DNA of 64,000 nucleotides from NCBI RefSeq assembly GCF_900112595.1, contig NZ_FOMI01000003.1, positions 186,001 to 250,000 of the forward strand, in the 5' to 3' direction. The notes below the pieces were generated by a model, which saw only the letters and a list, made by a program, of their open reading frames with translations, searched no databases and was not told the DNA's origin. Made by a program: the position numbers and the translations under genes. This DNA comes from Algibacter pectinivorans. Lineage in GTDB: Bacteria; Bacteroidota; Bacteroidia; Flavobacteriales; Flavobacteriaceae. Positions 3,901 to 41,414 of this stretch are shown here, one piece after another; positions within the stretch are counted from its first letter, which is position 1; each line of letters begins with the position of its first letter.

Positions 3901-4990
3901 AGAAGTTAATTTTTCGTTAGTAGATAGAGCTTCAAAACCAGAATTATCACCAGTTACATTTTGCTTAGAAAATGAGCCTACTGTGCAAGAGTTAATAGAT
4001 GCTTTAGAAACGCAAACGTCAAATACCATAACTATTTACGACGATGAAACCTCTACAACAGCATTAGATGCTACTTTGGAATTATCGACGCTTACAGAGC
4101 CTATTTATGCTTCTCAAACCATTACTGTAGGGTGCGAAAGTAACGAAAGAACGGAGGTTACTTTTACTTTGGCTAATCCAACAATTTCAAGCAATGATTT
4201 TCAAGTACTGCACTGTAGTATAGACCAAGCTACGTTAAACGATGTGTATTTTGGCAACGGAACCGTGGTATGGAAGGACGAAAGCGATAATCCTTTATTA
4301 GGAACCGTTTTATTAGAAAACGGAACGTCCTATTTTGCGCAAGTAGAGGTGGAATCTTGTTTAAGTGAAGCTATAGAGATTCAAATAACTTTGGTAGATG
4401 TTCAAGATCCTTTACCAAGTGCAACAACAGCTAATTTTTGCGGAATTCAAGAAAAACAAATAGCAGATCTATTAGAAGATGAGTCTGGTAATGCACGCTT
4501 TACTATACCAGCTAGCCATACTTTAGTTTGGTACGATACTAATGATGTGTCTACACGAAACACTCTAGATAATAACACGGTACTAGATAATGTTACCTAT
4601 TACGCGGCATACGAAGTCACTTCAACAGTGTCGGGACAAACCATAACTTGCGAAAGCAATGCGGTAGGTATTACAGTCGATTTAACAGCTTGCGATCCAA
4701 AAGAATTAGTTATTCCAGATGCATTTTCCCCTAATGGCGATAGCATCAACGATACCTTCGAGTTACTAAATATAGAATTTGTGTACCCAGATTATAACAT
4801 TGAAATTTATAATAGATACGGACGTGTTGTTTTTAAAGGCGATATAGAAGTTGGTTTCTGGGATGGTAAAAGTAATCAAGGAGGATTTTCTAGTGGTGAA
4901 GTTTTACCAACAGGCGTTTACTTCTACGTAATTAATTTTAATCGATTTGATACAAAACCATATCAAGGACAAGTTTATTTAAAACGATAA
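974..4990 (+). CDS. T9SS type B sorting domain-containing cell-surface protein with tandem Ig-like repeats
   Basis: This is a secreted 1338-aa cell-surface protein. It has a signal peptide (residues 1-27, ending around YGIAQC). Many Ig/PKD-like beta modules follow. In the second half at least six units begin with an (F/H)C pair about 75-85 residues apart, near residues 752, 830, 910, 995, 1079 and 1154; a second Cys later in most units could form a disulphide. The last ~90 residues (PDAFSPNGDSINDTFE, YNRYGRVVF, GVYFYVINF) are the gliding-motility-associated C-terminal (CHU_C, type B) domain recognised by the type IX secretion system. Its stop overlaps the start of the PorP/SprF gene (TAATG). 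Type B substrates usually pair with a PorP/SprF-like partner, as here. Ligand unknown; probably an adhesin or matrix protein. Confidence 0.92.
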   Translation: MNTCFRNIFRFIFTSFIVFSSSYGIAQCAGTGSEITICDKETDPSLQAFNLFDQITGETPGGTWVADSNFNSDALDETAGIVNLWAINRFGAHGFTYMNSACDASTATVIINLGGYPGESNQNPGTNNVCQVLKADDDDAANIIDLFIFIDTANAMIGPDTGGVWTESPGNMATGLLINEFFNFGDVPIGTYTFTYTVPSVNGCPSSSAIIDVEVRRSPNPGVATPLNLCESVDMSSLRDLDLFSRLTGEDTNGEWTDSNVPSTGELSNGSDSVINVENIYNTLGVGTYTFSYKVIPDHPICEEQEAVFTICIEEQLELTGTLDVDCQGVVTVNYDSSLLANGTYNLSYTVTGSNLGTHTNTQNVDFANGNATFNLEPDLNLTSSETLTIQIDNITGPSPCGGLPLCTSIINVPPKMFDMFVEPSISITSTTGCELDDILITYLNTVDSNFNPIDGTQSVTYSINGVDFTDEVTFSNGNAASNVSVDRFMLGSNQLVFYQSNSFVHCKDLNTGIFLNLIPAPPNPVFSIVPDNKCDASSVQFGFNSPSGEFIAYNPVTFDIYQHGSEPGQFQPRDPSVSLTNNTQGDGIDLNISNTNDVSQLPDGDYVFVIRSVQDDNAACRGLSQTEIDNYAAQGIAIGLTKSGNNHIFDARLTFRIGDPPLPKLIKNNFQVCLLNGPVTLGDLSIFAGADVNIALTDINDVEVPETFEITEDATFNAIFTSAITGCDLGTEQFMVSVVSNASSPTLNTNVFCSLVTNTVSDLDTSGQDIVWYDAETDGIAYNTSDVIDTNNAYWAEITISGGCVSTTRTQAVITFVNQANAPTPLTNEFCSSATPTISDLQVETDAAIIQWFTSQTGPEYTSTALPLDETQEYWVSQTAIQGCESERVQVTFTTTDVAPNPEPITNSFCTADGTVYTLEDLAYNESSLSREGELTYFSDAAGTVAIPSTELLENVKSPVYVQQIIAEACSSAIVEVNFSLVDRASKPELSPVTFCLENEPTVQELIDALETQTSNTITIYDDETSTTALDATLELSTLTEPIYASQTITVGCESNERTEVTFTLANPTISSNDFQVLHCSIDQATLNDVYFGNGTVVWKDESDNPLLGTVLLENGTSYFAQVEVESCLSEAIEIQITLVDVQDPLPSATTANFCGIQEKQIADLLEDESGNARFTIPASHTLVWYDTNDVSTRNTLDNNTVLDNVTYYAAYEVTSTVSGQTITCESNAVGITVDLTACDPKELVIPDAFSPNGDSINDTFELLNIEFVYPDYNIEIYNRYGRVVFKGDIEVGFWDGKSNQGGFSSGEVLPTGVYFYVINFNRFDTKPYQGQVYLKR

Positions 4991-5952
4991 TGACTAGCAA
5001 TACCAATTCAAAAATGTCAAAATATATAAAATCTGTGCTGTTAGCTTTATTGTTATGCAATGTCGTAGTGGCGCAACAAGATCCGCAATTTACGCAGTAT
5101 ACTTACAATATGAGCGTTGTAAACCCTGCGTACTCCACAACCGATTTTGGTGTGGTTAATTTAGGTGCTAATTACCGTAAGCAATGGACAAACACCATTG
5201 GTAGTCCTAGAACGTTTTCATTTTTTGCACATACGCCTTTTAATGATAAAATTGAAATGGGACTAACATTTACAACCGATCAAATTGGGCAGGATGTTAT
5301 CGAAATAAACGAAAAAAATATTAACGCAGACTTTGCATACGTTTTAAATATTAATACCAACAGTAAGTTGTCTTTAGGGTTAAAAGCCGGTTTTACTTTA
5401 TATGATACTGCTTTTACTGGAACCTTAATAAACTCTAACGACCCTACATTTACTAATAATGTAAATGAGGTGTATCCAACTATTGGCGCAGGTGCTTATT
5501 ATTTTACAGACTCCTATTATTTAGGGTTATCTGCTCCTAATTTTTTACGAACAACTCAACTTGATGATGCTGTAGTAGCTACAAAACTAGGAAAAGAGGA
5601 GGTGCACTTTTATATGATTGGTGGTTATGTATATCCTGTAAACGAGAATTTAAAATTAAAACCTTCATTTATGGCTAGAGCCGTAAAAGGCGCTCCAGTT
5701 AACTTAGATGTGTCCGTAAATGCCTTAATACACGACCGTTTTGAAGCTGGTCTTTCGTATAGATTGGATGATGCTGTTAGTGGTATTGTTGGGTTTAGAG
5801 TTACTCCATCGTTTAAGGTGGCTTACTCTTATGATGCTACGGTTTCAGAGTTTTCTAATTATAACAACGGGTCGCACGAAATTGTATTATTGTTCGATGT
5901 GTCGTTATTCGGTTTAAAGGAAGGATATAAAAAATCACCAAGATTTTTCTAA
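4990..5952 (+). CDS. PorP/SprF family type IX secretion system membrane protein
   Basis: An outer-membrane beta-barrel of 320 aa. It has a signal peptide ending near VVVAQ and the family hallmark just after it, QDPQFTQYTYNMSVVNPAY, followed by repeated amphipathic strands and an aromatic C-terminus. PorP/SprF proteins assist secretion or surface attachment of type B T9SS cargo and are normally encoded directly beside their cargo, as here. The ATG overlaps the preceding stop by one base; an internal ATG at 5014 (MSKYIK) would also leave a good signal peptide. Translation is probably coupled to the upstream gene. The OmpA-family gene follows 8 bases later. Very likely assignment; its specific cargo is inferred from gene order. 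Confidence 0.93.
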   Translation: MTSNTNSKMSKYIKSVLLALLLCNVVVAQQDPQFTQYTYNMSVVNPAYSTTDFGVVNLGANYRKQWTNTIGSPRTFSFFAHTPFNDKIEMGLTFTTDQIGQDVIEINEKNINADFAYVLNINTNSKLSLGLKAGFTLYDTAFTGTLINSNDPTFTNNVNEVYPTIGAGAYYFTDSYYLGLSAPNFLRTTQLDDAVVATKLGKEEVHFYMIGGYVYPVNENLKLKPSFMARAVKGAPVNLDVSVNALIHDRFEAGLSYRLDDAVSGIVGFRVTPSFKVAYSYDATVSEFSNYNNGSHEIVLLFDVSLFGLKEGYKKSPRFF

Positions 5953-5960
5953 AAATATTA

Positions 5961-8102
5961 TTGATGAAAAAATTACTACCAATATTTGCATTCATACTTA
6001 TGTTTTCTGGGTTTGCACAGGAAAAAGAAGCTTCGGTTAAACCCATTTTTAATAATGATTTACGACGTGCTAATGCCTATTTTGAGCGTGCGGATTATGC
6101 TAAAGCTATTCCGTTCTACGAAAAAGTAAATACAAAACAGCGTATTACCCAAGTGGTTGAAAATTTAGCAACATGTTATTATAATATTGGCGATCTTAAA
6201 TCGTCTGCAAGACTTTACGGTTATTTAGTAAATAGTAAACGTGGTAATAAAACAGACCAGAATGTGTTTAAGTACATCCAAGCGCTTAAAGCTTCGGGGA
6301 ATTATAAAGATGCTAATAGTGTTAGTCGTGAATTTCTAGCAGAAAAAGGAGATGTTTCAGTGTTAAAAACTTTTGATGCTGAGGTTGTTAAGCAAGAAAA
6401 TATTATAGCTATTGGTAGTCGTTATAATCTTGAAAACTTAGCTATAAATACGGAGAATTCAGAATTTGGTATGTTGCCTTATCAAGATAATTTAGTGTAT
6501 GCAGCCTCAAAAAAAGAAGGACATAAAAAGAATATTTTTAGTAAGTATTACGGTTGGAACAATCAGCCATTTTTAGATATTTATAAGATTAATAAGGATA
6601 GTGTTTCAAAAGGAAATACGGCTTCAGCGTCTATCTCAGAGGCTATAAATACTAAACTTCACGAAGGTTCGGTTGCGTTTACGCAAGATCTTAAAACCAT
6701 TTATTTTACTAGAAACAATTATATTAAAGGTAAAGAAGTAAAAGACGATAAATCTGTTACTCATTTAAAAATATATAAAGCCCAATTAATTGATAGTGTT
6801 TGGACCAACATTGAAGCCCTTCCATTTAATGGTGATGATTTTTCGGTAGAACATCCAGCATTAAGTCCAGATGGTAAGCGTTTGTATTTTGCCTCGGATA
6901 TGCCAGGAACTTTAGGTGAATTCGATTTGTTTTATGTTGATGTAAAAGCCGATGGCACATACGGAGCTCCTGTAAATTTAGGTGCTGCCATAAATACGGA
7001 ACACCGCGAACAGTTTCCATTTATAGCAGATAATGGCGATTTATATTTCTCATCGAATGGGCAATTTGGTTTTGGTGGATTAGATGTATTTTGGGCGAAG
7101 AAATCCGGAACTAGTTTCCAAAAGCCAGATAATTTGGGCTTACCACTTAATTCTGGTTACGATGATTTTGCTTTTTATTTAGATAAATCCTTAAAATCTG
7201 GATTTGTATCATCCAATAGAATAAAAGGTAAAGGGAGCGACGATATTTATAGTTTTAAAGAGATTAAACCTTTAATTATAGAAGATTGTACACAATACAT
7301 AAATGGTATTATTACCGATAAAGATACCGAGGTATGTATTACAAATGCAAAAGTGACCCTTAGTATAATATCTATAGATCCAAGCACAGATTTAGCTACG
7401 TTTACCACTAAAGAAGATGGGGCTTTTAATACAGGTGTTGATTGTGAAATTACGGTATTGGTAAAAGCAACAGCACATGGTTATCAAGATGCGCAACGTA
7501 AAATAATAATAGGAGGAGAGCGCCGTATTACAAACGATGCATCTTTAGCACTTGTGTCTTTAGCATCTATTAAAGAGAAGGAGCAGGAAGCACAGCAAAT
7601 CGCTTTGGAGAAAGAACGACAAAAAGAGCAGGAAAAGCAAAAGAAAGAACAAGTAAAGCTTAAGCAAGATGCCGAAAATAAAAAGAAGGCATATGATAAT
7701 ATTATAGCTTCTGAGCCTAATTTAAAAACCAAAAACAATAGGCTTGTTATTGTAACGGCAGATATTAATTTTGATTATAAACTTTGGTACATTAGAAAGG
7801 ATGTTAAAAAAGTTTTACAACCTGTGGTCGATTTACTTAATAAGTATCCTAATATGCAAATTGAAATTGAATCGCATACCGATATTAGGGGAAATGAAGC
7901 TTATAACAAAGATTTGTCTCAAAAAAGAGCCACTTCAACTAAAGAATATTTAGTGTCTAAAGGCATAGAATCTTATAGGATTACTGCCATTGGTTATGGC
8001 GAGTCTAAACCGTTACAAAAATGTGTTACAGAAGATGCTTGTAGCGAAGAGGAGCATGAAATTAATAGAAGATCGGAATTTGTTATTAAGCAACTCCAAT
8101 AG
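5961..8102 (+). CDS. TPR / PD40 beta-propeller / OmpA-family protein of the T9SS operon (PorE-like)
   Basis: A 713-aa envelope protein. Domains in order: signal peptide (1-20); TPR-like helices (about 30-140; NAYFERADYAKAIPFYEK); WD40-like PD40 beta-propeller strands (about 160-440; HPALSPDGKRLYFASD and FPFIADNGDLYFSS); a carboxypeptidase-regulatory-like beta sandwich (about 450-530); a highly charged Glu/Lys/Gln linker (about 535-575); and a C-terminal OmpA domain that binds peptidoglycan (IEIESHTDIRGNEAYNKDLS, ITAIGYGESKP). This architecture is the one that accompanies PorP/SprF and links outer-membrane secretion parts to the cell wall. Third gene of the operon. Family assignment is firm; the exact partner is inferred. 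Confidence 0.92.
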   Translation: MMKKLLPIFAFILMFSGFAQEKEASVKPIFNNDLRRANAYFERADYAKAIPFYEKVNTKQRITQVVENLATCYYNIGDLKSSARLYGYLVNSKRGNKTDQNVFKYIQALKASGNYKDANSVSREFLAEKGDVSVLKTFDAEVVKQENIIAIGSRYNLENLAINTENSEFGMLPYQDNLVYAASKKEGHKKNIFSKYYGWNNQPFLDIYKINKDSVSKGNTASASISEAINTKLHEGSVAFTQDLKTIYFTRNNYIKGKEVKDDKSVTHLKIYKAQLIDSVWTNIEALPFNGDDFSVEHPALSPDGKRLYFASDMPGTLGEFDLFYVDVKADGTYGAPVNLGAAINTEHREQFPFIADNGDLYFSSNGQFGFGGLDVFWAKKSGTSFQKPDNLGLPLNSGYDDFAFYLDKSLKSGFVSSNRIKGKGSDDIYSFKEIKPLIIEDCTQYINGIITDKDTEVCITNAKVTLSIISIDPSTDLATFTTKEDGAFNTGVDCEITVLVKATAHGYQDAQRKIIIGGERRITNDASLALVSLASIKEKEQEAQQIALEKERQKEQEKQKKEQVKLKQDAENKKKAYDNIIASEPNLKTKNNRLVIVTADINFDYKLWYIRKDVKKVLQPVVDLLNKYPNMQIEIESHTDIRGNEAYNKDLSQKRATSTKEYLVSKGIESYRITAIGYGESKPLQKCVTEDACSEEEHEINRRSEFVIKQLQ

Positions 8103-34693: not shown

Positions 34694-34703
34694 GTTGTGG
34701 TTA
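34694..34703 (+). repeat. Inverted repeat, left copy (orphan gene cassette)
   Basis: GTTGTGGTTA, exactly complementary to TAACCACAAC at 35398-35407. The copies bracket one small orphan gene; this copy contains the gene's stop codon. Confidence 0.55.
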
Positions 34704-35384
34704 GTTTTTTATTTCCACTTTCAAATATTTTATTTCCTTTTCGCAACTTGTTTGAAATTCAGATTCAAGTTTTAAATAGTAACTATTATTTAAAACTTTA
34801 GATTCAATCGTTCTCCAACCTTGAATTCCAATAACGTACTGTTCTTTCGTTTTTAAATCCGTTAATGCAATTTCTTCTTCTCCATAATAGTTTGAGTGAG
34901 AAATGGTTGCTTCTCCATTTGAAGTCAAAGGTTTTCCCATTGTAAAACAAGTCAGTCCGTTTTTCAAGTCAACTGATAAAAATCCCCAACCCTCAAATTC
35001 AGTAATTTCAATTAATGCGTTTCCGCAATAAGTTCCCTTAAATTCGTAATTTGAATATCCTTTTTCTTTTAATAAATATTTACACGCTTTTAATTCAGGT
35101 GTTTTTATTCCAATTCCATTATTAGCATTTGCTCGAAATGTATAGCAAGAGTCTTTAAGTTTGAAAATTTCAGGATATTTTTTGGTCAGTTCAATTTCAG
35201 ATATTGGCTTAAAATCAATAAATTTTTCTGAAATTCTAACAACTTTATCATATTCCGATTTGTCAATAAGTTCCGATTTTCCATTTAGAATATTCGACAA
35301 ATTCCGTATTACAAAATCACAATCTTGAGCCCAAGAAGTTTGGACAATGGTAAATAGAAATATTAAGATTAGTCTTATTTTCAT
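34701..35384 (-). CDS. Secreted orphan protein
   Basis: 227 aa not recognised. Signal peptide 1-19 (IFLFTIVQTSWAQ). The mature part has five Cys residues (DCDF, SCYTF, ACKYLL, YCGNALIEI, TCFTMG, and SCEKE near the end) and a helical N-terminal half (LSNILNGKSELIDKSEYDKV) followed by a beta-rich C-terminal half (ALIEITEFEGWGFLSVDLKN, EQYVIGIQGWRTIESK). The gene is isolated and lies between perfect 10-bp inverted repeats, in the way of small secreted-protein cassettes common in Bacteroidota. No function proposed. Confidence 0.7.
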   Translation of the reverse strand: MKIRLILIFLFTIVQTSWAQDCDFVIRNLSNILNGKSELIDKSEYDKVVRISEKFIDFKPISEIELTKKYPEIFKLKDSCYTFRANANNGIGIKTPELKACKYLLKEKGYSNYEFKGTYCGNALIEITEFEGWGFLSVDLKNGLTCFTMGKPLTSNGEATISHSNYYGEEEIALTDLKTKEQYVIGIQGWRTIESKVLNNSYYLKLESEFQTSCEKEIKYLKVEIKN

Positions 35385-37261: not shown

Positions 37262-37750
37262 TTATTCCTTTATAATTATACCATTTTCAAGTTCTGTTTT
37301 AGCGGGTGTTTCAAACCAAGTTTCCATAAAGTCGAAATTTTCTTGGGTTACCTCAAACTCAAAAGTGTCGCCTTTTTCAGTATTGCGTTTCATAACTCGT
37401 TTTTGGCGAATGGCTTTTGGTATATCTAAAAAGTGAAGTTTTATTTGGTAGCCATTGGCCTTTGCAAAGCGTCTAAATTTCTCTCGATGTTCAAATTTTG
37501 ATAGGCCTAAATCTAGAATGGCATCTGTTTTAGCGTCTTCCAATTGCTCTACTACATTTAAAATCATTTTTTCGGCTCTTTCAATGCGTTCTAAAAACCA
37601 TTCTAAACCATCCTCTGGCTTTTTATCTTCAAGAAATAGCGTTTTATTCCAGGCATCAATAGAAAAGACAATACCCTTTGTTTTTTCTTTTAACGCCTTA
37701 GCATAGGTTGTTTTGCCAGCGCCTGTATTTCCTACTATTAAATGTATCAT
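37262..37750 (-). CDS. P-loop ATP-binding kinase-like protein (AAA_33)
   Basis: 162 aa. Walker A GNTGAGKT at residues 7-14, then VFSIDAW, DAILDLGLSKFEHREKFRRF (Walker-B-like strand plus lid) and KLHFLDIPKAIRQKRVMKRN. This is the AAA_33/zeta-toxin-like small-molecule kinase fold. Proteins of this kind phosphorylate nucleosides, sugars or polynucleotide ends, but the substrate cannot be inferred. Monocistronic, divergent from the 37956 operon. Fold firm, function open. Confidence 0.85.
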   Translation of the reverse strand: MIHLIVGNTGAGKTTYAKALKEKTKGIVFSIDAWNKTLFLEDKKPEDGLEWFLERIERAEKMILNVVEQLEDAKTDAILDLGLSKFEHREKFRRFAKANGYQIKLHFLDIPKAIRQKRVMKRNTEKGDTFEFEVTQENFDFMETWFETPAKTELENGIIIKE

Positions 37751-37955: not shown

Positions 37956-38195
37956 ATGAAAAATTACTTTAAAGTTAAAGAAGTTTTTAAAACTATACAA
38001 GCGCAGGTTATAGATTATCCTAACGTAACAGGTATAGAAATAGCATCTTTAAAAAAAGACGGTGTGTACACCAGCGATTTATGTATTAGGGTTTTAGTGA
38101 ATTCTGAAAACGTAACCATTAAAGATTTAAATATCCCCGAATCTATAGACGGTATAGCAATTAGCGTAACATATAAAACCATTTTCCCTCAATAA
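37956..38195 (+). CDS. Small protein, stand-alone copy of the protease N-terminal module
   Basis: 79 aa without signal peptide. It aligns over its whole length with residues 1-80 of the next gene's product: NVTGIEIA...LCIRVLV against GVTGVDVG...ITIRVHV, and NIPESIDGIAISV...IFPQ against KIPETINGIKTDV...VFPQ. Both modules end with FPQ, where the protease continues with its catalytic part. The fold looks alpha-beta-beta-alpha-beta, roughly ferredoxin-like, as in some protease propeptides. It is first in the locus, 44 bases before the protease gene. It could be an inhibitor, a carrier or a substrate. Homology is seen directly; role is inferred. Confidence 0.8.
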   Translation: MKNYFKVKEVFKTIQAQVIDYPNVTGIEIASLKKDGVYTSDLCIRVLVNSENVTIKDLNIPESIDGIAISVTYKTIFPQ

Positions 38196-38239
38196 TTAAT
38201 TAAAACTGTAAAACTATGTAGAATTAAAACCCCATTAAA

Positions 38240-39712
38240 ATGAAAGCATTAAACGACATTATTAAGGAAAAGCAATCTGCCGAAGCTGCTTTATTTAAAC
38301 TAAAAGGCGTAACAGGAGTCGATGTAGGCTATAAGTACACAGATGGTAAACGTACCGATGAAATTACCATTAGGGTACATGTAAAACAAAAAAAGAAAAC
38401 GGTTGCTTCAAAAGATAAAATTCCGGAAACAATAAACGGTATTAAAACAGATGTTATTGAAATGGAAGTTTTCCCTCAGGTGTTCTCTCAAAAACTAGAA
38501 AACATTTCATTACAAGCCGATACCACTACGTATGCCACGGTACAAGGCGGAATTAGCATCGGGCCAGAACGTACTATTTCAGGCTATGTATTTACAGGAA
38601 CTTTAGGCTGTATTGCTAAAGATAATGTTACAAACAACCCCGTACTATTAAGTAATTATCATGTTATGTGTGTGGATAATACATGGAGTGTTGGCGATTT
38701 TATGTGCCAACCAAGTCGTGTGGATACAGGTTCGCCAGGAACCGATAGAGTAGGAGCTTTAGAACGCGCTGTTTTAAGCGGACATGTAGATGGTGCTATT
38801 TCCACTTTAAGTGGCAGACCGCACGACTGTTCTATTGTAGATATAGGCGATGTAAAAGGAACGGCATCGGCTGTTTTAAATTCGGCAGTAAGAAAACGGG
38901 GTAGAACAACACTATTTACCGAAGGTTTTGTTGATGCTATAAATGCCACCGTAAATGTTAACTACGGAGACACCATTGGTGTTAAAACTTTAACCGATCA
39001 AATTGGTATAAGACCCGACGAAAATGTAAACCCAAAATTTAGTGCTAAAGGCGATTCGGGTTCTGTGGTTGTAGATGCCGATAATAAGGTAATAGGGTTG
39101 CTTTTTGCAGGTAACGATTCTGGTTACACCTATATTAATCCGATTTCGCATGTTTTAAGCGAGTTGAATATTTCTTTATGTATTAAATCTAAAAGTGTTT
39201 TAAAAGATTTTAAAGATATTAATAAAGAAGCTAAAGAAATTAAACTTGAAAAGCTCGAAAAAAGTGAAAAATTAGAAAAGCTAGAGAAAAAGGAAAACAA
39301 GGAAATTAAAAAGGAAAAGCTGGAAAAGATTGAAAAGGTAGAAAGTAAAGAGTTTAAAAAAGAAATAAAAGAAATTAAAAAAGAGTTCTATAAGGAATTG
39401 CCAGATAATAAAGGCATTATGCCAGATAAAGTAGATAAGCCTATTACAGATAAGCTAGATAAACCTTTTGATGGCGGTAATAAGCTAAGAGAGATCTCGG
39501 ATAACTATAAACCAGGTTTAGGTAACTTTAATACTGGCGGAAATACAATTGAAGATCGCTTGTCGCAAATAGAACAAAGTTTATCTGCATTAACTGCTTT
39601 TATTGGTTCAGATTTACGGCCAGATTTATCATCGGGCGCTTTAACTAATGAACAGGATATTGCAGCGATGCAAGAAAAAATGAATAAAGATATTGCTGAC
39701 AGTATGATGTAA
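38240..39712 (+). CDS. Trypsin-like serine protease with N-terminal module and Lys/Glu-repeat tail
   Basis: 490 aa, no signal peptide. Residues 1-80: module shared with the preceding gene. Residues ~95-315: trypsin-like fold with a complete triad, His141 (LLSNYHVMC), Asp184 (GHVDGAIS) and Ser273 (AKGDSGSVVVD). Residues ~326-385: a stretch made almost only of Lys, Glu, Ile and Leu (LEKLEKSEKLEKLEKKENKE), probably a charged helix. Residues ~390-410: Pro/Asp/Lys repeats (DKVDKPITDKLDKPFD). Residues ~436-490: an amphipathic tail (IEDRLSQIEQSLSALTAFIG). Located between its stand-alone module and an ATP-grasp gene pair. Predicted active and cytoplasmic unless exported without a classical signal; target unknown. 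Confidence 0.85.
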   Translation: MKALNDIIKEKQSAEAALFKLKGVTGVDVGYKYTDGKRTDEITIRVHVKQKKKTVASKDKIPETINGIKTDVIEMEVFPQVFSQKLENISLQADTTTYATVQGGISIGPERTISGYVFTGTLGCIAKDNVTNNPVLLSNYHVMCVDNTWSVGDFMCQPSRVDTGSPGTDRVGALERAVLSGHVDGAISTLSGRPHDCSIVDIGDVKGTASAVLNSAVRKRGRTTLFTEGFVDAINATVNVNYGDTIGVKTLTDQIGIRPDENVNPKFSAKGDSGSVVVDADNKVIGLLFAGNDSGYTYINPISHVLSELNISLCIKSKSVLKDFKDINKEAKEIKLEKLEKSEKLEKLEKKENKEIKKEKLEKIEKVESKEFKKEIKEIKKEFYKELPDNKGIMPDKVDKPITDKLDKPFDGGNKLREISDNYKPGLGNFNTGGNTIEDRLSQIEQSLSALTAFIGSDLRPDLSSGALTNEQDIAAMQEKMNKDIADSMM

Positions 39713-39747
39713 TACGGCAAATAATTTTTGAGTTAGTCACTTTTAAT

Positions 39748-39800
39748 AAAACCTTAGAAACAAATATTAAAAGCAAAGTAGCTATTTGTTTTTAAGGTTT
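39748..39800 (+). terminator. Hairpin between protease and ATP-grasp genes (terminator or attenuator)
   Basis: 18-bp stem with one G-T pair, AAACCTTAGAAACAAATA (39748-39765) / TATTTGTTTTTAAGGTTT (39783-39800), 17-nt loop, then TTAATTAATT. It begins 36 bases after the protease stop and ends 17 bases before the next ATG. Confidence 0.7.
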
Positions 39801-39817
39801 TTAATTAATTACCTATT

Positions 39818-40501
39818 ATGAATGTAATATTAAGTCATCCACAAGATAGCGATGCCATTTGGCTTTATTTGGAGCTTAAAAAAAGCCATGTTGATATAGA
39901 ATTGGTGAGTCCGGAAGAGTTGCTAATGGCCGAAGAATGGACACAACATATTAATAATGATGAAGACCTGTTTTATATTAAAACAAAAAAAGGGCTAGAA
40001 ATAACCAATAGCAACCTCAATTTTCTGTTTAATAGAACACAAATGGCTATAGCACCAATTTGGGATAAAGCCAAAGAGCCCGAACGCCAGTACGTACAAT
40101 CTGAAATGAATGCCTTAATGATGAGTTGGTTAGCCCAGGTTAGTAAAAAAGGACGTATTTACAACCCAGGAAAAGGTTATAGTTTAAGTGGTGTGTTTTG
40201 GTCTAAACAACAATGGGCTAATGCTGCCTTTAAAGCAGGATTTAATTCTGCATCTTCAGAGGCTACTGCACTAATAGAACCTGTACTTGTAGTTGGTACA
40301 AAGGTAATTACAAATTACCGTAATAAAACCTTGATTGAACATTGTATAAAACTCTCTATGCTCGCCCAAACACCTTTGTTAGAAATTTATATAAATAAAC
40401 AGGATGAAACCCAATTTTTAAGTGCCAATACTTATCCAGAACTTAGTAAGTATGGCGCTAAATTAATTGCTATTTTAAAACACATTATTTATGAAAACTA
40501 A
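39818..40501 (+). CDS. Degenerate ATP-grasp-like partner protein
   Basis: 227 aa. Residues 1-145 look like the N-terminal (pre-ATP-grasp) domain of RimK-type ligases: NFLFNRTQ, YVQSEMNALMMSWLAQ, IYNPGKGYSLSGVFWSKQQW and AAFKAGF. After it come only about 80 residues (LVVGTKVITN, LLEIYINKQDETQFLSANTY, PELSKYGAKLIAIL) that resemble the last strands of the ATP-grasp domain, without the metal-binding E-x-N. The protein is therefore probably inactive by itself. Its stop codon overlaps the start of a full ATP-grasp gene by 11 bp, so the two may form a heteromer. The fold assignment is by eye and moderate. Confidence 0.65.
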   Translation: MNVILSHPQDSDAIWLYLELKKSHVDIELVSPEELLMAEEWTQHINNDEDLFYIKTKKGLEITNSNLNFLFNRTQMAIAPIWDKAKEPERQYVQSEMNALMMSWLAQVSKKGRIYNPGKGYSLSGVFWSKQQWANAAFKAGFNSASSEATALIEPVLVVGTKVITNYRNKTLIEHCIKLSMLAQTPLLEIYINKQDETQFLSANTYPELSKYGAKLIAILKHIIYEN

Positions 40502-41414
40502 AATGGTATTATTATGTGGTATACCTAGTGAAAGCCCAATCTCGAAAGTTAAAGATGCTTTAATGGAAACAGATGCACAGGTTGTTGTTTTTAATCAAAG
40601 ACATTTTGAAAACACAGAAATTGATTGGAAGTTTGTTAATGGTGTGCCTAAAGGAAAATTGTATATGTCCAACTGCAGCTATGATTTATCGAGTTTTAAG
40701 AGTGTGTATTCTCGGTTTATGAGCGAAAATAACCTACCAGAAATGGAGGGCAAAGATGAAAAAACTAAGGCTAGATGTAAAATGCTACACGAATCTTTAT
40801 TTGAATGGTTGGAAGTTACAAATGCTAAGGTTGTTAATAGGCACAGCAACATGTATAGTAATAGTAGTAAACCGTACCAAGCACAAATAATTAAGCGCTA
40901 CGGATTAAAAACGCCTCCAACTTTAATTACCAATAATCCAAAAGCTGTTTTAGCTTTTAATGCAGCCCATAAATCTATAATTTATAAATCTATTAGTGGC
41001 ATACGTTCCATTGTAAAGGAGTTCGACCCTACTGATACCGAAAGGTTAAATAAAATAAAGTATTGCCCGGTTCAATTTCAAGCACGTTTATCTGGTTTCG
41101 ATGTTCGGGTTCATGTTATAGGAAAAGAGGTTATAGCCACTAAAATACTAACCACAGGTGTCGATTATCGTTATGCTAGAAAGGATGGTGGCGAAACCGA
41201 ATTGGAGCCTTTCAAAATTTCAGATGCCATAAAAAACGCATGTGTAAACGTTAGTGCTGCACTTAAATTAGATTTTAGCGGTATCGATTTAAGATTTACT
41301 GATAATGGCGATGTATATTGTTTTGAGGTAAATCCAATGCCGGGGTATTCCTATTACGAAAGCAATACAGGGCAAAAAATATCTAAAGTTTTAGCTAAAT
41401 ATTTGGTGGCGTAA
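40491..41414 (+). CDS. RimK-like ATP-grasp ligase
   Basis: 307 aa. N-terminal domain (1-120; SVYSRFMSENNLPEM, WLEVTNAKVVNRHSN), then the ATP-grasp domain: nucleotide-binding YKSISGIRSIV (165-175), PVQFQARLSGFDVRVHVIG (193-211) with Arg206, ATKILTTGVDYRYAR, and the metal-binding GIDLRFTDNGDVYCFEVNP with Asp266, Glu279 and Asn281. Such enzymes join a carboxylate to an amine, hydroxyl or thiol through an acyl phosphate; relatives include RimK, MvdC/D graspetide ligases and amidoligases. It is coupled by overlap to the degenerate partner and follows a protease with a Lys/Glu-rich tail. Substrate unknown. Confidence 0.87.
   Translation: MKTKMVLLCGIPSESPISKVKDALMETDAQVVVFNQRHFENTEIDWKFVNGVPKGKLYMSNCSYDLSSFKSVYSRFMSENNLPEMEGKDEKTKARCKMLHESLFEWLEVTNAKVVNRHSNMYSNSSKPYQAQIIKRYGLKTPPTLITNNPKAVLAFNAAHKSIIYKSISGIRSIVKEFDPTDTERLNKIKYCPVQFQARLSGFDVRVHVIGKEVIATKILTTGVDYRYARKDGGETELEPFKISDAIKNACVNVSAALKLDFSGIDLRFTDNGDVYCFEVNPMPGYSYYESNTGQKISKVLAKYLVA

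Follow-up and report, generated by a model that had tools for sequence, protein, structure and literature searches.

A candidate protein-stapling cassette with a graspetide-type ligase, a dead ligase paralogue and a Lys/Glu-repeat tail

Introduction

What could a protease, a small protein and two ATP-grasp proteins be doing side by side in one compact gene set? The question is raised by a locus of Algibacter pectinivorans lying within the 64,000-nucleotide stretch of DNA analysed here, called the window, whose positions are used as coordinates throughout. A preliminary description of this locus had listed four plus-strand open reading frames (ORFs), the last two overlapping by 11 bp (40491-40501), all of which were found as described, and had proposed a graspetide-like or protein-tagging system. 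The present analysis leads to a more defined proposal, to which a probability of about 0.64 can be given: the locus would hold a portable protein-modification system of graspetide ancestry, in which a ligase and its partner make intramolecular Lys-Glu/Asp isopeptide rings in the tail of a neighbouring protein. It also seems, on balance, a reasonable expectation that this is a natural, horizontally mobile protein-stapling module of bacteria and archaea, combining a C-terminal tag, a dead-ligase partner and a row of isopeptide rings on unrelated folded enzymes. The elements concerned, with lengths in amino acids (aa), are the following.

37956-38195, plus strand: stand-alone module of 79 aa, resembling the N-terminal domain of the next protein; accessory
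38240-39712, plus strand: tail protein of 490 aa, in which a trypsin-type protease of the NAL1 kind is followed by a C-terminal Lys/Glu-repeat tail; candidate substrate of the ligase
38240-38479, plus strand: N-terminal module of the tail protein (residues 1-80), common to the 79-aa protein; weak NAL1_N match
38537-39184, plus strand: trypsin-like protease domain (about residues 100-315); His141, Asp184 and Ser273 invariant in 4 of 4 rows
39185-39532, plus strand: repeat tail rich in Lys, Glu and Asp (residues 316-431; 33 K, 1 R, 19 E, 9 D); from composition and spacing, the part proposed to be cross-linked
39533-39709, plus strand: C-terminal conserved segment, which contains LTAFIGSDLRPDLSSGAL; proposed to be recognised by the ligase and/or its partner as a follower sequence
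39818-40501, plus strand: catalytically dead graspetide-ligase paralogue of 227 aa; proposed partner subunit
40491-41414, plus strand: intact graspetide-type ATP-grasp ligase of 307 aa, from sequence and profile matches

The intact ligase

The last gene had been described as a full RimK-like ligase. A RimK-like domain is indeed matched in Pfam, but the closest relatives of the enzyme are graspetide ligases, and it falls within the graspetide synthetase family by two comparisons, neither of which places it nearer to RimK. Among NCBIfam models it matches TIGR04187 best (E 3.4e-33), a model of ATP-grasp ribosomal peptide maturases, with MvdD/MvdC and RimK further down. A profile built from 11 relatives has the plesiocin ligase PsnB (PDB 7drm) as its best PDB match over most of its length (E 1.9e-34), followed by other graspetide-type ligases, the best RimK chain appearing at 9e-11. 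The earlier idea of a graspetide-like system is strengthened by these matches.

Alignment of 17 ligase rows revealed 31 invariant columns, including K127, K166, R206, D225-Y228, D266, E279 and N281; from what is known of the ATP-grasp family, D266, E279 and N281 are presumably metal ligands. In a midpoint-rooted tree, the 17 clade members, with the divergent loci L046 and L049 among them, stand apart from six outgroup ligases (support 100/99), the inner forks being unsure because of long branches.

The dead paralogue

The third gene encodes a catalytically dead paralogue of graspetide ligases, which is probably a partner subunit of the intact one. Its relationship to the ligase family could be detected by hhalign (P 89%, E 2.3e-6), and the degenerate ATP-grasp protein announced in the preliminary description was also recognised by its fold. 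The AlphaFold2 model has a predicted local distance difference test (pLDDT) value of 90.6, from a 15-row alignment, and in a Foldseek search of the PDB its matches ranked 1-32 are all graspetide-type ligases, with PsnB at the top and MdnB/MdnC, AMdnB, PruB and a Chryseobacterium ligase of ribosomally synthesised and post-translationally modified peptides (RiPPs) among them; LysX, synapsin and RimK rank after these. When 15 partner rows were merged with the 17 ligase rows, K166, R206, H208, the DYRY motif, D266 and E279 were kept by none of the partners, K127 and N281 were retained in few, and R75, N116 and P284 in most, although individual columns may be misplaced because identity is low. A truncated, inactive ATP-grasp of this kind lies beside the active ligase in 15 of 15 loci.

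A conserved unit of three genes

Tail protein, partner and ligase adjoin one another in these 15 loci, window counted, from Algibacter, Mucilaginibacter, other Bacteroidota, a Nitrosomonas metagenome-assembled genome (MAG), Verrucomicrobiota, Euryarchaeota and one viral-labelled contig. A ligase search of genome contigs yielded 11 loci, 10 of which have the order tail protein, partner, ligase (the exception is L027); the closest is that of Algibacter amylolyticus (L017), with a ligase 97% identical. Since the identical order reappears in unrelated genomes, the gene set is more than a chance arrangement. Further cassettes came from the surveys (L040 in genome G765, L041 in G664, L048 in G1347 of the Verrucomicrobiota sample, and the viral-labelled contig L031). 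Two members, L020 and L026, are cut by contig ends, and L026 is left without its front domain.

The gene set of the preliminary description does recur in other genomes, but the conserved unit comprises three genes rather than four, because a search of 13 sequences detected the stand-alone 79-aa gene in just three, namely the window, A. amylolyticus (protein identity 94%) and the Nitrosomonas MAG (L018, 50%). The L048 match to the 79-aa protein is the protease N-terminus itself. In the window as well, this module is common to the 79-aa protein and the protease, as had been noticed (32% over 69 aa, tblastn E 1e-6). A role of the 79-aa protein as a general peptide substrate was rejected, the stand-alone gene being confined to these three loci, and is further disfavoured by the presence of the same module at the protease N-terminus; this protein is probably not the substrate. 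Two outcomes had been set beforehand as fatal to the idea of a system, rarely conserved neighbours or a housekeeping ligase. Both were looked for, and the idea was not refuted.

The cassette is rare. Among 395 genomes of the phylum, the ligase profile had matches in 3; for the archaeal class the figures were 3 of 199, for the Nitrosomonas class 2 of 229 (one match being weak and divergent), for the Verrucomicrobiota sample 2 of 240 and for the Mucilaginibacter family 1 of 151. The seed genomes are included, and the counts partly overlap. A search with the single protein found no match in two other genomes of the window's genus. In a family-wide search 15 of 397 genomes matched, 14 of them with at most 66 bits against 693 for the window, and a regular expression for the tail found nothing in the short loci of those 14 genomes. 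This scattered occurrence, together with the 63% ligase identity between the window and the Nitrosomonas MAG, suggests a spread by horizontal transfer. Plasmid and phage searches with the ligase returned distant ligases only; the tail motif was present in just one of the three plasmid neighbourhoods opened, that of Megaera (L046), and the Mucilaginibacter cassette DNA had no match among plasmids.

Shadow frames apart, divergent loci have only two other families in common (E 1e-5), both generic and taken as chance neighbours: response regulators in the window, L017 and L022, and short-chain dehydrogenase-like ORFs in L020 and L048. The preliminary description had seen no transporter, and no transporter family was found to recur across divergent cassettes, some of which have short flanks. 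A defence system was also considered and set aside: a PADLOC run on 8 proteins gave no meaningful match for the four window proteins, with one weak 19-bit CARF match reaching into the charged region, and a generic subtilase match for L031. Two further loci were noted, one in a flavobacterial relative with two overlapping ATP-grasp ORFs (L008, 458-2496) and one in a small genome of about 1.2 Mb in which a divergent ligase (137 bits) is followed by a partner-like ORF, in reversed order (L049 in G1106, 5718-7351).

One tail behind interchangeable front domains

The window protease is trypsin-like, of the NAL1 kind. His141, Asp184 and Ser273, which do not vary in the 4 aligned rows (window row counted), are assigned here as its predicted catalytic triad, in line with the complete triad of the preliminary description. 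NAL1-like Pfam matches (window, L018, L048) remain under the curated cut-offs. In the other cassettes, the domain in front of the tail may be of quite another nature. For the 8 cassettes of the contig search outside L017 and L018, the window protease matches the upstream protein by blastp in the tail part only. The Mucilaginibacter tail protein is an astacin-type protease (HETGHTLGFPHEH), and three Euryarchaeota MAGs (titled Methanoregulaceae, Methanomicrobiales and Euryarchaeota) have an M6 metalloprotease in front; all four proteins end with the same type of Lys/Glu repeat and C-terminal segment. An M6 metalloprotease is also found in L040, a NAL1-like protease in L048, a subtilase (S8) in L031 and a non-protease Rho_N protein in L041. 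Astacin (1 tested), M6 (3 of 3 tested), S8 and Rho_N all lie above the Pfam cut-offs. What stays constant is the architecture of the tail, in which Lys/acidic repeats precede a C-terminal segment of the LTxFIxxxLRPDLSxGAL type. A protease acting beside a small-peptide substrate, as first imagined, has thus to be abandoned, because it is the tail that persists while the protease domain is replaced by unrelated ones.

No strongly hydrophobic N-terminal stretch could be detected in the 13 tail proteins with a sufficient front domain (best 12-residue Kyte-Doolittle mean 1.21; the protein starts of L025, L031, L040 and L048 are uncertain). As neither such a stretch nor a recurring transporter family was seen, the product probably stays in the cell or exits by an unusual route. 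The AlphaFold2 model of the tail protein (pLDDT 34, from a 4-row alignment) was not used.

Does the fused protease itself cut off the modified tail, releasing a free lactam peptide? Such a self-processing precursor would agree with the fusion of protease and tail in most loci, and graspetides are usually released as peptides. The Rho_N fusion of L041, the four different protease folds and the lack of any conserved cleavage site or recurring transporter in the cassettes make it an unlikely solution. In another scheme, put forward by Makarova et al. 2022 for branches 7 and 8 of their survey (PMC8939145), peptides are released from other proteins of the cell by the peptidase and then modified by the ligase. 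Of the 15 cassettes, 13 begin with a protease gene, as this published scheme would have it; the count includes the L020 fragment, by similarity, but neither L041, where there is no protease, nor L026, truncated before its front domain. The constant element is nevertheless the tail and not the protease, which in L041 gives way to the Rho_N protein, and four unrelated protease folds would have to yield matching peptides, so that this scheme looks very improbable. The modified tail might instead be a built-in inhibitor keeping the protease inactive, since a graspetide-like core is fused to a protease and the graspetides characterised by 2022 are protease inhibitors (PMC8939145). The same type of tail is, however, carried by serine proteases and metalloproteases of four folds, and by a non-protease, which leaves this role quite doubtful.

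Two further features were seen around tail proteins. In that of L048 (4213-6096), Pro-rich linkers lie between three tandem Lys/Glu blocks, an arrangement reminiscent of a multi-core precursor. In L041, the gene that precedes the Rho_N tail protein (4791-5486) has a weak match, under cut-off (E 8e-4), to a WelO5-type 2-oxoglutarate (2OG) oxygenase, which may be compared with the corallotide Lys hydroxylase.

The tail as candidate substrate

The tails are ordered repeats of a three-residue type, with a marked bias in composition. Lys and Arg number 302 and 16 in 14 of the 15 tails (L017 dropped as a near-duplicate), compared with 194 and 177 in the bodies of the proteins (Fisher p 7e-40). The bias holds in the 8 tails whose locus G+C exceeds 0.5 (162:12, versus 129:131 in bodies), L018 being barely above that value. 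With 33 K, 28 acidic residues and 6 S+T in the window tail, and little Ser/Thr in tails generally, both the acceptor (Ser/Thr/Lys) and donor (Asp/Glu) side chains of a graspetide core are available. In 8 pairwise alignments, tail Lys sites comprise 144 K=K, no K/R and 37 K/other cells, as against 88, 15 and 38 in bodies. Acidic sites remain acidic in 126 of 147 cells of tails and 250 of 339 of bodies, other residues being identical in 162 of 297 and 1758 of 2146, respectively; some members enter more than one pair and the alignment method favours K-K and E-E columns, so these site counts serve as supporting evidence only.

The preference for Lys over Arg suggests that the amine itself is needed. 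This bears on the possibility that the ligase adds free amino acids to the tail or the C-terminus, by a RimK-like glutamylation and with no rings. The RimK-like domain and the matches to solved RimK structures would fit with it; such an amine requirement argues the other way, as does the much greater closeness of graspetide ligases than RimK to both the ligase and its dead paralogue, and glutamylation is considered rather improbable.

Spacing was analysed in 11 tails (L017, L020, L022 and L023 dropped as near-duplicates). K-to-acid pairs are above local shuffles at +1, +2, +4, +5 and +8 (z 6.0, 5.1, 3.6, 9.6 and 7.2) and below them at +3 and +6 (z -6.3 and -5.6), the two distances at which acid-acid and Lys-Lys pairs have their peaks. 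As the tails have no single fixed K-x(n)-E spacing, they do not reveal how rings would be connected. Cross-links between molecules, giving covalent protease oligomers, appear unlikely: the rings of known graspetides are mostly intrachain and the sequence requires no oligomers. Each tail does offer many Lys and acidic sites, and the graspetide synthetase ThfB is able to cross-link assembled protein chains (PMC12291112).

The C-terminal segment, searched as a 40-aa profile, has exactly one match, beside the ligase, in 10 of 11 cassette records, all 10 of which had supplied profile rows, so that the informative part is the lack of a second match per record. The remaining record is the viral-labelled contig L031, whose segment is shorter and not among the profile rows. 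In 360 genomes of the phylum, the profile has two matches, G000 and G664, both carrying the cassette. A regular expression for the segment, composed after the tails were seen, was run over 39 loci (398,753 bases) and matched 16 times, in the 15 cassettes and in Megaera.

Homologous NAL1-like proteases borne by plasmids provide a natural comparison. In 12 of 12 records the match reaches query residue 324 at most, in a search with the low-complexity filter on, so that the repeat itself was masked and unable to match. Four of these genes were opened; they encode 312-329 aa and stop where the tail would start. When the surroundings of these four genes, about 2.5 kb on each side, were searched unmasked with 17 ligases, 15 partners and the C-terminal segment of the window protein, no match to any of the three was found. 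One tail-less NAL1-like protease, on a Rhizobium plasmid (L061, 1-3367), lies near a radical SAM gene and an HEXXH putative peptide modification gene, a possible RiPP setting. The excess of Lys over Arg, the single occurrence of the segment beside the ligase and the ending of ligase-less homologues at the tail start make the tail the likely substrate of the ligase, an assignment to which comparison of the loci lends good support.

The substrate would not be a classical one. The short precursor peptide of graspetides, with its N-terminal leader and C-terminal core, was not found in the cassette; the candidate here is the tail part of an enzyme of 490 aa, and only the Megaera relative has the tail motif in a short ORF. 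On this plasmid (L046, 3702-7202), a 53-aa Lys/Asp-rich ORF is followed by a 41-aa ORF with FISFDLRPDL directly upstream of the divergent ligase, then by a partner-like ORF (4860-5696) and two 2OG-Fe(II) oxygenases. It is possibly a stand-alone-precursor relative of the cassette.

Several observations weigh against ring formation in the tail. The TIGR04187 score of the ligase, 115 bits, is far under the curated cut-off of 350. The segment searches are partly circular in the two respects given above. The L031 tail, with 11 K and 6 R, is an exception to Arg depletion, and the 41-aa Megaera ORF has the two motif Asp as its only acidic residues. L049, with a related ligase and a partner-like ORF, has no tail-motif match. 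Apart from the fused proteases, the loci share no recurrent protease or transporter by which a product could be released or exported. Lastly, the missing fixed spacing counts here too, and Lys/Glu-rich segments may also be plain charged linkers.

A proposed stapling mechanism

In the mechanism proposed here, the ligase, probably together with its dead paralogue, would recognise the C-terminal segment of the tail protein, a recognition sequence located after the core instead of before it. The ligase would then use ATP to activate Glu/Asp side chains of the upstream repeats and link these to the amines of Lys. A folded enzyme, the trypsin-like protease in the case of the window, would come to bear a row of intramolecular isopeptide (omega-amide) rings along its tail. 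Lys-Glu/Asp isopeptide rings are the likely product by analogy with the ligase family; we infer the role of the partner, recognition by the C-terminal segment and the confinement of rings to one chain. As to purpose, our working guess is that the tails of cytosolic proteases are stiffened and made resistant to proteolysis.

If the tail is cross-linked, nature would apply graspetide chemistry to folded proteins of large size, and the recognition sequence would follow the core. There would also be a practical use for a short C-terminal tag by which any protein fused to it receives several isopeptide staples.

Around the cassette

Directly upstream of the cassette, an AAA_33/zeta-toxin-like kinase ORF occupies 37262-37750 on the minus strand, with no recurring link to the cassette seen. 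Further away (34701-35384) is a 227-aa protein with a signal-peptide-like start and no Pfam match. The promoter/terminator scan, which gave fewer sites than in shuffles, is uninformative for Bacteroidota.

Comparison with known systems

The closest solved relative of the ligase, and the top fold match of the dead paralogue, is PsnB (PDB 7drm-7drp). Plesiocin itself is an ester-linked hairpin peptide with an N-terminal leader, and its system differs in having no fused enzyme. RimK, the S6 glutamate ligase, has the ATP-grasp fold in common but is more distant from the ligase than graspetide ligases are.

Corallotide (graspetide group 15), in which Lys-Asp isopeptides are made at KxxxD by a TIGR04187 enzyme, shares with the cassette the type of ligase, a large repetitive substrate and Lys-acid isopeptide chemistry (Carter et al. 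2026, PMC13097080). Its precursor, however, is a peptide dedicated to this role, in which KxxxD sites are combined with a helical domain at the N-terminus. The locus also encodes a beta-lactamase-like protein and a 2OG oxygenase, and neither a dead ligase nor a fusion to a protease is described in the part of the paper at hand. The same source reports diverse proteases near group 32, as well as a graspetide synthetase requiring a partner protein, the rosaritide synthetase with MirC; MirC is a PpiC-type isomerase and not a dead ligase paralogue (PMC13097080). A transporter or peptidase for export or maturation was looked for as a feature of graspetide clusters, and no transporter family recurs across divergent cassettes here; such a component is absent from some known graspetide clusters too (PMC13097080). 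A graspetide leader is still functional when moved behind the core by engineering (Johnson et al. 2026, PMC13003496), and a graspetide synthetase can cyclise a protein (Choi et al. 2025, PMC12291112). The repositioned leader and the corallotide isopeptides are precedents for the chemistry and the recognition proposed here.

The preliminary description knew of no system with this composition. A precursor tail fused to a protease was indeed not found among titles and abstract openings of the graspetide literature searched, which left most subscription journals outside its scope, but the setting had been described: as judged from the description in Makarova et al. 2022, the cassette matches branch 8 (PMC8939145). 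Branch 8 loci typically contain a truncated inactive ATP-grasp beside a graspetide-type one, and peptidases from unrelated families occur in the majority of loci of branches 7 and 8, as they do in the present cassettes with their NAL1-like, astacin, M6 and S8 domains. The difference lies in the part given to the peptidase, thought there to act on other proteins, whereas here its own tail is the proposed precursor. Branch 8-like ligases lacked a detectable or predictable precursor in that survey (PMC8939145), and the tail is now a concrete candidate: if the proposal is right, the precursor missing for these orphan ligases would be a graspetide at the level of a whole protein, with its recognition signal at the C-terminus.

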